Below, piece after piece: positions 8,195-29,213 of a stretch of DNA of 33,706 nt. How positions within the stretch are numbered: the first letter of the stretch is position 1; every line of letters starts with the position of its first letter. Under the pieces are notes generated by a model, which did no database searches, was not told the DNA's origin, and saw nothing but the letters and a program-made list of their open reading frames with translations. The position numbers and the translations under genes are program-made. Source of the DNA: a virus; IMG/VR virus record IMGVR_UViG_3300032285_001150, positions 1 to 33,706 of that record; one strand, written 5' to 3'.

Positions 8195-8210
8195 TATGAT
8201 GGAAGCTATT

Positions 8211-8882
8211 ATGAAATCATTCAAAGAGTACTTAACAGAAAGCAAGAAGACCTACGAGTTTAAGGTCAAGATTGCGGGTGAAATCCCCAAGGATTTTGCA
8301 ACTAATTTGAAGACAGCATTGTCTGCCTTCCAAGTCGAAAATATTAAAAATGCCAAGCGCACTCCTATCCAAGAAAGTCCAATCGATTTTCCTAATGTAT
8401 TTTTTAGAGAAGTAACAGTTTTTGATGTTGAGCTAAAATATCCTTGCAACAGCCCTATGCTAGCCAAGATCATCCACGAACATATGGGCATCGACCGCAA
8501 GCATGTAGTTGTTCGCACATTGGGCGAAGAACAGGAAAGCATTATCAATACACAGTATATGGGCGGAGACGAAGTAACTACTAGCTCTAACGCAGACGAA
8601 GCATTGTTAAACACACCATACCAGCCAGGTAGCAATCAAGACATGGTGGGTGAACAACACAAGATGGGCTTCTTAAAAGGATTAGAAGCTACTAAGCATG
8701 GGTTAGAAGAATACAAAGGCGTAAACGATCAGTTATTTGCCGGTATGCCAAAGAGCGATGATCAAAAAATGCAATCATCTGTTACTCCTAATGACAGCAA
8801 GATTAGTGTAACAGGACACAAGTCAATTAAATTATCGCCAGTTGTAGCCGATGTTAAAAACGGCATTGGCAAAGGAAAATAA
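8211..8882 (+). CDS. Probable internal head protein with a capsid-targeting N-terminus
   Basis: The first ten residues, MKSFKEYLTE, align position by position with the T4 internal protein capsid-targeting sequence MKTYQEFIAE, including a final L/I-x-E site of the kind cut by the gp21 prohead protease. The predicted mature protein would begin at S11. The 223-residue protein has an N-terminal alpha/beta part (about 13-108, ending VVVRTLGEEQES) and a polar, flexible C-terminal half. I do not recognise the body. I prefer 8211 over the in-frame ATG at 8196 because the T4 alignment starts there, a GGA(AG) site precedes it, and 8196 lies upstream of the predicted transcription start. Packaging into the head is an inference from the targeting motif. 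Confidence 0.7.
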   Translation: MKSFKEYLTESKKTYEFKVKIAGEIPKDFATNLKTALSAFQVENIKNAKRTPIQESPIDFPNVFFREVTVFDVELKYPCNSPMLAKIIHEHMGIDRKHVVVRTLGEEQESIINTQYMGGDEVTTSSNADEALLNTPYQPGSNQDMVGEQHKMGFLKGLEATKHGLEEYKGVNDQLFAGMPKSDDQKMQSSVTPNDSKISVTGHKSIKLSPVVADVKNGIGKGK

Positions 8883-13344: not shown

Positions 13345-14184
13345 ATGGGAATTATTTACGATACATTAATTAAGATGAACGAAGATCCTGTAGATCAGCC
13401 GCCAGCGGTTGTAGGATCAACAGATGCAACAACATCAGATGCGACACCGGCCAAAAGAGAATATAAAAATGGAACTATTGGTAAGGGAAGTCCTCCGGAT
13501 CAGATCAAAGGGTTGCAGAAGCAATTAGGCATTCCTGAATCTGGAACATGGGATCCAGCTACTGATAAAGCAGTTAGAGACAAACAGAAAGAAATTGGTG
13601 CTACTCCAGACGGCAAGTGGGGGCCGGATTCAAGAGCTAAGTTTGCGGCAAAAAATCCTCCTATGCCTCCTAAAAAGCCCGAAGAATTAGCCGGTATGAC
13701 TGATAAAGGCGCAGCCAATCAAAATCAGACAACGCCAACTGCCCCAGCAGGCCCAGCACCGGATGGTGCAGTTATCAAGTCTGCAGATATTCCGTGGGCT
13801 GAAAAATTTCCATTCTATCAAGGTGCCGATATGGTTAAGAAAAACGGCAAGTGGACTACACAGGCTACACCTCAATGGAATGGCATGGGAGCAACTGCAA
13901 ATCAACCAGACTGGATAGCAACTTTAGAAAAGATCTATGCGACTAAGAATCCAAGCGGAGCCGGCAGTCAGGCTGCGGCTCCTGCGACCCAAGGTCCAAA
14001 TGGCGAACCGTTGGTCAACTACAGAACACAGCGCGGCGAAAATCAAGTAGGATATTGGCAAAGTACCTCGGGTAAAGGAACCAAAAACTGGGTACAAGTA
14101 CCTGGTGGTAAAGTACAAGAGAGTATTACTGGTTACAGTCAGGATCCAGTGCTAGCACGTATCGTAGAATTGTCTAGACGTTAA
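13345..14184 (+). CDS. Peptidoglycan-binding-domain virion protein candidate
   Basis: The 279-residue protein has one domain of the PG_binding_1 type at about residues 52-101: IKGLQKQLGIPESGTWD, then AVRDKQKEIGATPDG and KWGPDSRAKF. This three-helix fold binds cell-wall peptidoglycan. No lysozyme, amidase or peptidase domain is visible in the rest, which is Pro/Ala/Gln-rich with several Trp-containing segments. The C-terminus SQDPVLARIVELSRR looks like a short helical tag. It starts 3 bases after the 706-residue gene with an AGGAAG ribosome site, so it shares that late transcript. It may guide tail or baseplate attachment to the cell wall, but that is inferred from the domain alone. Confidence 0.75.
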   Translation: MGIIYDTLIKMNEDPVDQPPAVVGSTDATTSDATPAKREYKNGTIGKGSPPDQIKGLQKQLGIPESGTWDPATDKAVRDKQKEIGATPDGKWGPDSRAKFAAKNPPMPPKKPEELAGMTDKGAANQNQTTPTAPAGPAPDGAVIKSADIPWAEKFPFYQGADMVKKNGKWTTQATPQWNGMGATANQPDWIATLEKIYATKNPSGAGSQAAAPATQGPNGEPLVNYRTQRGENQVGYWQSTSGKGTKNWVQVPGGKVQESITGYSQDPVLARIVELSRR

Positions 14185-27107: not shown

Positions 27108-28562
27108 ATGAGTGAAAATAAAGATAAAGCAAGACAAAACGTTGATTATGGTTATGAAATCCAACGTGTATATTTAGAGATGATGTTGGCCGATGCCGGT
27201 ACATTTGTACGCTGTCAGTCGATATTCGACAGCAAGTTGTTTGACAGAAAACTACAGCCAGCGGCAGAATTCCTTACTAGATATGTAAGTGAAAACAATG
27301 TTCTTCCAACGCCAGACATTATCAATGCGGCAACTGGATCTACATTAAAGCCTGCAACAGATTTGCGAGAAGAGCATTTTGAATGGCTGATGAATGATTT
27401 TGAAACTTTTACAAGACACAAAGGTCTTGAAAGAGCTATCTTGGAATCAGCAGACCTGCTTGAAAAAGGAGAGTATGGTCCTGTTGAAGAAAAGATCAAA
27501 CAGGCAGTACAGGTAGGACTGCAACGTGACATGGGTACTGATTATTTTGCAGACCCTCGAAAAAGATTGATGGCAATTAAGGACAAAAATGGACAAATTT
27601 CGACAGGTTGGAAAAATGTTGATGACAAGCTATTTGGAGGCTTTAACCGTGGCGAGCTCAACATTTGGGCGGGCGGTTCAGGTGCTGGTAAATCCTTATT
27701 TCTGGCTAATCTTGGTGTCAATTATGCTCTCGCTGGATATAATGTAATCTATCTAACATTAGAACTTAGTGAAGAACTCGTAAGTATGCGTGTAGATGCT
27801 ATGGTAACTGGCATACCAACTAGGGAGATTTTCAAGAACATTGACGATGTTGAAATGAAAGTTAAAATGATTGGTAAGAAGTCTGGACAGTTCCAAGTCA
27901 AATATATGCCTAGTGGCAAGACAGCCAATGATATCCGTGCTTACTTAAAAGAATATGAAATTAAGATGGGACGTAAGGTCGATGTACTATTAGTCGACTA
28001 TATGGATTTGTTGATGCCTTTGAGCAAGAGAATTAGTGCTGAAAATCTGTTTGTTAAAGACAAGTATGTATCGGAAGAATTGCGTAATCTTGCGGTTGAA
28101 AAGAACTGTATCTTTGTGACAGCGGCACAGTTGAATCGAGGCGCTGTTGAAGAAGTTGAATTTGATCACAGCCATATTTCAGGCGGACTATCTAAGATTC
28201 AGACAGCAGATAACGTGTTTGGTATCTTTACAAGTCGTGCTATGCGTGAGCGGGGACGCTATCAAATCCAATTAATGAAAACACGTAGTTCAAGTGGTGT
28301 TGGACAAAAAATCGATTTGGAGTTCAACATCGATACACTAAGAATTACAGACTTGTTGGAAGATGATTATAATAGTCCAGGGCAAACTGCTGGTAGCACA
28401 TTGCTGAACAGTATTAAGCAAAAAACAACTATCACGGCTGCTGGAGAAGCATTTTCGGACCCAACAGCTGGTGTAGCCGTTCCTAAAGTACAAGCCAAAG
28501 TTGAGAGCTCGAAATTGCGAGAATTGCTGAATAATTTACCTGGTGATTCCGAAGAGTTCTAG
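27108..28562 (+). CDS. gp41: Replicative DNA helicase, DnaB-like (gp41)
   Basis: The 484-residue protein (T4: 475) has an N-terminal helical domain and a RecA-like motor with Walker A GGSGAGKS (K195), Walker B LLVDYMD (D297), the AAQLNRGAVEE segment and an arginine-finger-type region near KTRSSSG. It unwinds DNA at the fork as a hexamer and works with gp61 primase. The ATG has no ribosome site; a TATAAT sits just upstream. The C-terminal 70 residues are low complexity and end in an acidic LPGDSEEF tail. Confidence 0.93.
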   Translation: MSENKDKARQNVDYGYEIQRVYLEMMLADAGTFVRCQSIFDSKLFDRKLQPAAEFLTRYVSENNVLPTPDIINAATGSTLKPATDLREEHFEWLMNDFETFTRHKGLERAILESADLLEKGEYGPVEEKIKQAVQVGLQRDMGTDYFADPRKRLMAIKDKNGQISTGWKNVDDKLFGGFNRGELNIWAGGSGAGKSLFLANLGVNYALAGYNVIYLTLELSEELVSMRVDAMVTGIPTREIFKNIDDVEMKVKMIGKKSGQFQVKYMPSGKTANDIRAYLKEYEIKMGRKVDVLLVDYMDLLMPLSKRISAENLFVKDKYVSEELRNLAVEKNCIFVTAAQLNRGAVEEVEFDHSHISGGLSKIQTADNVFGIFTSRAMRERGRYQIQLMKTRSSSGVGQKIDLEFNIDTLRITDLLEDDYNSPGQTAGSTLLNSIKQKTTITAAGEAFSDPTAGVAVPKVQAKVESSKLRELLNNLPGDSEEF

Positions 28563-28596
28563 CATAAATATATGCATAGTGTATTTAGACTAAATA
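28563..28596 (+). promoter_or_regulatory. Tandem T4-type late promoters
   Basis: CATAAATA (28563-28570) and ACTAAATA (28589-28596) lie 26 bases apart, directly after the gp41 stop. The second gives a short leader with AGAGAG before the ATG at 28615. Confidence 0.6.
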
Positions 28597-28614
28597 CGTA
28601 AAGAGAGAACACAT

Positions 28615-29127
28615 ATGGCCCAACAAGACATTCTACGCAAGTACTTAGACATATTGAACGAATCTACTCCTGCTGAAAAAGCGGAAGCAATGATTACATT
28701 AGATCGAGTATCTGCTCCTAGTGAAAATCCAGTAGCTGAACTATTAGAAGCAGTTTCTAGATTCAAACAATCACAGCCGGATCTAGCACAAGATACACGT
28801 TTAGATCCTAAGACATTAGCTCGAATCATGTCTCTATCAAAAGTAATGGAAGACGATATGGGTCCTATGGCTCCTGCTGATACGATGACTCCACCTAATG
28901 GTCCTAATACTCCTACTCCTAATCAAATGCCTATGAGCGAAAATATCATGGACACTTTGCGCAAGAAGGCTGCATTGCATCGTGGTTATTCGCACGGATT
29001 AATGGGCGATTCGCATACCCATTGTGCCCACAAAGAAGGTACTCCTGAACATATGCATTGGCATCACGGCTACAGCGAAGGTCTTAAAGAATGTAGTGGA
29101 GTTTGGAAATTACCAGGTTCTATGTAA
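28615..29127 (+). CDS. Late protein with a C-terminal ribosome-modulation-factor-like motif
   Basis: In this 170-residue protein the C-terminal part (about 119-157) matches the RMF signature in order and spacing: A-x3-GY (G124, Y125), G128, G131, C137, then W149 and GY (G152, Y153). E. coli RMF has A-x3-GY-x2-G-x2-G-x5-C and then W and GW. RMF dimerises 70S ribosomes into an inactive form. The region is also His-rich (about nine His), so metal binding is an alternative. The N-terminus (MAQQDILRKYLDILNE) is a helix ending in L-N-E, which fits an L/I-x-E prohead protease site, and the middle is Pro/Met-rich. It has tandem late promoters and its own terminator. Function is inferred. Confidence 0.75.
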   Translation: MAQQDILRKYLDILNESTPAEKAEAMITLDRVSAPSENPVAELLEAVSRFKQSQPDLAQDTRLDPKTLARIMSLSKVMEDDMGPMAPADTMTPPNGPNTPTPNQMPMSENIMDTLRKKAALHRGYSHGLMGDSHTHCAHKEGTPEHMHWHHGYSEGLKECSGVWKLPGSM

Positions 29128-29131
29128 ACTA

Positions 29132-29154
29132 AAAACCCGCACTAAGCGGGTTTT
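29132..29154 (+). terminator. Bidirectional rho-independent terminator
   Basis: AAAACCCGC/GCGGGTTTT form a 9-bp stem with a 5-base loop, with a T run on the right and an A run on the left. It can therefore end transcription in both directions. Confidence 0.9.
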
Positions 29155-29213
29155 TTATTGGCAAAACAAACAGTGTTTGTAATAGTTTGGTCATCCCGAG
29201 GATGAGTCCATCT
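29132..29213 (-). ncRNA. Candidate late small RNA on the minus strand
   Basis: A perfect minus-strand late promoter (29219-29226) predicts a start near 29213. The RNA would run leftward through hairpins TCATCC/GGATGA (29191-29205) and ACAAAC/GTTTGT (29166-29180) to the bidirectional terminator at 29132-29154, giving about 80 nt. No open reading frame of note lies in it. The prediction rests on promoter, hairpins and terminator only. Confidence 0.45.

Follow-up and report, generated by a model that had tools for sequence, protein, structure and literature searches.

The internal proteins of phage T4 have been described as diverse cargo in which only the capsid-targeting sequence (CTS) is conserved, and their propeptides as 10–20 residues long (PMC3012670, PMC5694885), and head-packed, tagged and variable cargo is already known from this phage. 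Phage proteins with the RMF fold are already known as well and have been catalogued (NCBIfam NF041887). In RMF, the residues R3, K5 and R11 are involved in ribosome binding, and G23 and R45 in dimerisation (review, PMC8778775). The locus described here carries a gene that bears on both systems.

The locus and its relatives

The window, i.e., the whole stretch of DNA that was analysed, is a 33.7-kb record of an uncultured virus with T4-type genes, which include those for the tail sheath and tube, terminase, UvsX, UvsY, primase and a DnaB-like helicase. An ORF of the plus strand (28615..29127) encodes a tagged protein of 170 residues with a likely Rmf/CrpP fold, and is placed between the DnaB-like replicative helicase (27108..28562, plus strand) and a tail-fibre-like gene. 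Judged by terminase (52%) and helicase (49–54%), the cultured phages closest to this virus are Paride, PA5oct and MIJ3, all jumbo phages of Pseudomonas; Paride can replicate in dormant cells according to a published report (PMC10761892). No family for the 170-residue protein was found in PHROGs, and neither the full protein nor its C-terminus, used separately in tblastn against 50,697 phage records, retrieved a relative; a match in the Yersinia phage fHe-Yen8-01 (E 1) was rejected, as it lacks the family match. Scans of viral contigs with the single protein found nothing, and the relatives were obtained instead through the neighbouring helicase, with which 80 related loci were retrieved and then searched by tblastn and by a scan with the family alignment. 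Seven distinct members, including the window protein, were detected in the window and IMG/VR, all of them in the same neighbourhood. The gene is missing from many close relatives and the content of this slot varies. In the family alignment, the N-terminal helix is invariant and the C-terminal domain conserved, and between these two zones there is a third, a variable linker that includes a PG_binding_1-like unit. As far as these searches reach, the tagged family and its domain combination are new, and the phage collection holds no relative.

Upstream of the gene, the earlier note had reported tandem late promoters. Two late-promoter-like elements are indeed present on the plus strand (28563..28597), CATAAATA at 28563-28570 and CTAAATAC at 28590-28597, the TAAATA elements being at −50 and −24 of the ORF, and similar pairs are kept in the orthologues. 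The second of them overlaps a palindrome, GTATTTAGACTAAATAC (28581-28597), and similar paired elements with palindrome half-sites are retained upstream of the orthologues in L002, L003, L004 and L012. Late expression is only suggested by these elements, since simple TAAATA motifs occur in the window no more often than expected by chance; likewise, the HATAAATA late-promoter motif does not exceed shuffles or chance within it. The inverted repeat GTATTT-n-AAATAC that overlaps the TAAATAC element is also retained in orthologues, and could be an operator or a promoter signature. Downstream of the gene, a hairpin that resembles a terminator (AACCCGC-ACTAA-GCGGGTT, with a run of T behind it; 29134..29156, plus strand) was read directly from the DNA and is unlisted by the pattern scan.

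The C-terminal domain and the Rmf/CrpP fold

The RMF-like spacing that had been claimed for residues 119–157 is present, and the match of the whole protein to Pfam RMF (PF04957; E 5.4e-6, 26.8 bits) covers the same residues. This score is below the cut-off of 27.9 bits, which is exceeded by the C-terminal 56 residues alone (29.3 bits) and by the raw DNA of the ORF (28.9 bits). With NCBIfam RMF (NF011162) the protein gave an E of 5e-7 and 29.5 bits, below the cut-off of 40; therefore, by curated cut-offs the whole protein falls outside RMF in both collections, and the isolated C-terminus passes in Pfam only. Among the orthologues, L002 reaches 12.9 bits on Pfam RMF and the other close ones give no score. 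With the profile of the family as query, no match was found among the PDB sequences.

The domain would be a His-rich, Rmf/CrpP-like helix-loop-helix formed by residues 118–159 (28966..29091, plus strand), in which G124, G128, G152 and G156 are invariant, as are four histidines (H122, H139, H146 and H151) shared by all family members; the consensus across the family is KAALHxG[YF]xxGL...H..G[TS]..H....HG[YH]..G..E....W. A metal-binding protein had been offered as an alternative to RMF, and the four invariant histidines favour this candidate role.

Comparison of profiles with hhalign gave a probability of 38% for the family against RMF proper, 72% against a set of bacterial Rmf/CrpP-like domains gathered from 299 Pseudomonadota genomes, and 84.5% when RMF and this set were merged. 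It could be argued that the match to RMF arose by chance from the His, Gly and aromatic composition of an unrelated metal-binding hairpin, given that the domain is His-rich and that close orthologues score little on RMF. However, none of 200 column shuffles of the family alignment attained 84.5% against the Rmf/CrpP profiles (maximum 14.8%), and L002 and L084 without the window protein still reached 84.4%; the resemblance thus exceeds chance and composition, and we regard this explanation as unlikely. As a caution, the subgroup formed by L003, L004, L012 and L093 shows no similarity to RMF when taken alone (probability about 2%), and the single-sequence NCBIfam score is below the cut-off. From the three hhalign values, the shuffles and the result with L002 and L084, a remote kinship of the C-terminal domain to the Rmf/CrpP fold is likely, whereas kinship to RMF in particular is only weakly indicated; accordingly, of the RMF kinship proposed earlier, for which an HMM-HMM comparison had been suggested, what stands is the broad fold and not RMF proper.

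Structural models added little to this picture. The AF2 model of the full-length protein (pLDDT 52) was too poor for use, and that of the C-terminal domain (pLDDT 65) shows two predicted helices and confirms neither the fold nor the metal site. With this poor model, Foldseek listed only two PDB chains, both of RMF (2jrm and 6h4n), with E values of 2.4 and 8.1; the TM-score of the low-confidence model against RMF structures was about 0.3, and VIA-align of the model found no match at Z ≥2.

The fold kinship could also mean that the protein is a divergent Rmf/CrpP-fold effector, which would bind ribosomes or RNA in a manner unlike RMF, or would have a protective role for ribosomes or for phage translation in the early phase of infection. 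In favour of this idea, the cultured relatives (the Paride and PA5oct group) also encode a small protein with the Rmf/CrpP fold, Paride_0351; nevertheless, this protein is untagged and belongs to a different gene context, and no ribosome binding by members of the fold other than RMF was found in this analysis, so that we consider it quite unlikely.

Two other observations concern the fold itself. Paride_0351 (L241 2566-2772; OR805295.1 181065-181271) has 68 residues and scores above the cut-off of NF041886; proteins of this type occur in Paride and its ten relatives, annotated as hypothetical and located in a cluster of small genes. In addition, each of the Pseudomonadota genomes G163, G155 and G283 has between three and five weak domains of the Rmf/CrpP-like type, located in open frames of 70–270 residues.

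The N-terminal tag and the slot behind DnaB

The N-terminal helix with its L-N-E end, read in the earlier note as a possible prohead protease site, is present and conserved among orthologues. Residues 1–17, MAQQDILRKYLDILNE/S (28615..28665, plus strand; the slash marks the cut), are predicted to contain a capsid-targeting propeptide cut by a prohead protease between E16 and S17, and R8, K9, Y10, L11, D12 and L14 are invariant. The conserved N-terminus RKYLDILNE/S, which ends in LxE, resembles the end of the MCP propeptide of relatives (RKYLAE/S); in related phages these ends read RKYLAE/S, RKYLME/S or KRYLQE/S. The window stops short of the head module and the evidence on protease and MCP comes from relatives: a Peptidase_S77, i.e., a gp21-type prohead protease, is found in the head module of clade members, and in the close relatives L247–L250 it is accompanied by a matching MCP cleavage site, recognised, like the propeptide ends, by sequence alone.

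An HMM of the tag, built from the first 17 residues, was run against the 4,137 ORFs of the related loci. Outside the family it matched proteins of L042, L043, L051 and L053, each at the protein start and directly after DnaB, and its other matches were weak, short and partial. Similarly, RKY[LI]..[LF]xE is found at the N-terminus of 11 out of 1,096 distinct genes, and all 11 are in the slot directly downstream of DnaB; they comprise the family of the 170-residue protein and unrelated bodies. These genes show the locus behind DnaB as an exchangeable cargo slot, where the same putative tag is carried by a protein with PG_binding_1 (above its cut-off) and a hydrophobic stretch (L042), by a GDSL hydrolase (L043, at its cut-off), and by large bodies of about 600 residues that match no family (L051 and L053). 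Regarding the individual genes, the tagged GDSL/SGNH hydrolase of this slot is encoded at 7513-8157 of L043, and the large tagged proteins (L051 7437-9230 and L053 6303-8198) have a hydrophobic C-terminal stretch; an M15-peptidase identity of the latter, proposed by eye (HLNAFDAS...DPVHWSY), was not significant in searches and is unconfirmed.

As in the CTS cargo of T4, an N-terminal tag of 10–20 residues that ends in [LI]xE is common to unrelated cargo. In the slot, LxE sites of the generic kind show only a weak enrichment close to the start of proteins (p 0.04) and were not relied on; because of this weakness, the case for packaging depends on the specific RKYLD helix. The packaging and cleavage suggested earlier are well supported as an inference by the presence of the tag on unrelated cargo of the same slot, by its MCP-like end and by the gp21-type protease. 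The tag looks as a capsid-targeting, protease-trimmed tag should, and from this we infer that the protein is present in the virion, cut and ejected. The same features could belong to a component of the head structure or of the scaffold core that is cleaved, disappears in part as the head matures and has no role in the host, given that the prohead protease of T4 also processes the core proteins gp67, gp68 and gp22 (PMC5694885). However, the relatives already encode, in their head module, an acidic core protein like gp67 as well as a scaffold-like gene, and the variable slot, together with the absence of the gene from many close relatives, fits accessory cargo better than an essential part; we give a core protein the same small chance as the divergent effector discussed above.

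A clade-specific, probable head-targeting tag and a post-DnaB cargo slot are hereby defined in relatives of the Paride/PA5oct jumbo phages, and therefore sequence alone suffices to draw up a list of candidates for injected proteins. Elsewhere in the window, an ORF at 8196-8882 starts with MMEAIMKSFKEYLTE/S, very like the tags of T4 internal proteins, and weakly matches a virion structural protein in PHROGs; it is a candidate for a second packaged protein. Another ORF, at 13345-14184, which has the N-terminus MGIIYDTLIKMNE/D and matches PG_binding_1 weakly (21.2 bits), possibly encodes a further envelope-directed virion protein.

Possible action of the cargo and comparison with known systems

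The region between the N-terminal helix and the C-terminal domain is hypervariable across the seven family members. In the window protein it includes a degenerate, peptidoglycan-binding-1-like helical unit (residues ~40–74; 28732..28836, plus strand) that scores below the cut-off of PG_binding_1 (PF01471), which the orthologues in L003, L004 and L093 (two stretches) exceed. The peptidoglycan-binding domain predicted in these orthologues points to the cell envelope.

The earlier note had gone as far as proposing that the protein silences host ribosomes. When the GY of the family is placed on the GY of RMF, the positions of R3, K5 and R11 are occupied in the window protein by I111, D113 and A119, and that of R11 is A in 7/7 members. 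The position of G23 is G131 in the window protein and A or N in some members, and that of R45 is S, G, L or M; hence, equivalents of K5, R11 and R45 are absent in the family, and R3 and G23 are not conserved. Ribosome silencing is unsupported because these binding and dimerisation residues are absent or not conserved.

With a probability of roughly 0.55, we favour that the protein is a T4-internal-protein-like and probably ejected head protein that acts as an envelope or metal-binding effector, rather than an RMF-type silencer of ribosomes; this preference is based on the PG_binding_1 of the orthologues, the envelope-type cargo of the slot and the invariant histidines. Residues 1–16 would act as the capsid-targeting propeptide and direct the protein to the core of the prohead, and cleavage after LNE by the gp21-type protease would take place there. 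The mature protein would then consist of flexible linkers, the degenerate peptidoglycan-binding-1-like unit and the C-terminal His-rich hairpin of the Rmf/CrpP fold, which probably binds a metal ion, and it would be packaged together with the DNA and then ejected into the host cell. From the tagged cargo types that share the DnaB slot, the cargo most likely either works on the cell envelope while the DNA enters or is a small effector that binds metal, and the His-rich domain probably acts in one of these two ways.

It is very unlikely that a head-packed Rmf/CrpP-fold protein delivered with the DNA controls host ribosomes or hibernation before phage gene expression; should the cargo nonetheless have an effect on ribosomes, these phages, which have in Paride a cultured cousin able to replicate in dormant cells, would possess a translation regulator that is delivered by the virion. 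The least probable reading is a virion-packaged mimic of RMF that would bind the host 30S/70S on entry and silence or dimerise ribosomes, for which the Pfam and NCBIfam matches, the two RMF chains listed by Foldseek (though at E 2.4 and 8.1) and the predicted packaging can be invoked, but which is opposed by the absence of equivalents of K5, R11 and R45 and the lack of conservation at R3 and G23, the 12.9 bits of L002 with no RMF score in other orthologues, the 38% against RMF proper, TM-scores about 0.3 with a VIA-align Z <2, and a domain that is His-rich instead of basic and shares its protein with an envelope-type domain.

Among the known systems, the T4 internal proteins (IPI, IPII and IPIII) and Alt share with this family a short, conserved N-terminal amphipathic tag with an [LI]xE end, cargo bodies that vary downstream of this tag, and a T4-type head module with a gp21-type protease. 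In contrast, the cargo described here is not recognisably related to any T4 internal protein, its locus is behind the DnaB helicase, and its packaging is predicted from sequence. With RMF (PF04957; 2jrm, 4v8g, 6h4n), it shares the A-x3-GY-x2-G-x2-G-x5-C spacing, the GY/GW of the second helix, and two predicted helices joined by a linker; it differs in lacking the basic N-terminal segment and the functional residues of RMF, in being His-rich, and in being fused to the tag and to a peptidoglycan-binding-like unit, whereas RMF, with about 55 residues, occurs as a free protein. Its best C-terminal profile match is with the proteins of the Rmf/CrpP fold (NF041886 and NF041887, 'Rmf_like_phage'; hhalign 72–84%), a fold already catalogued in phages; unlike the small free protein Paride_0351, the family is below the NCBIfam cut-offs, His-rich and tagged. 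Finally, the middle region of the orthologues passes the family cut-off of the PG_binding_1 proteins (PF01471), such as phage endolysins, from which the family differs in having the second half of the domain only, with no catalytic lysin domain recognised.
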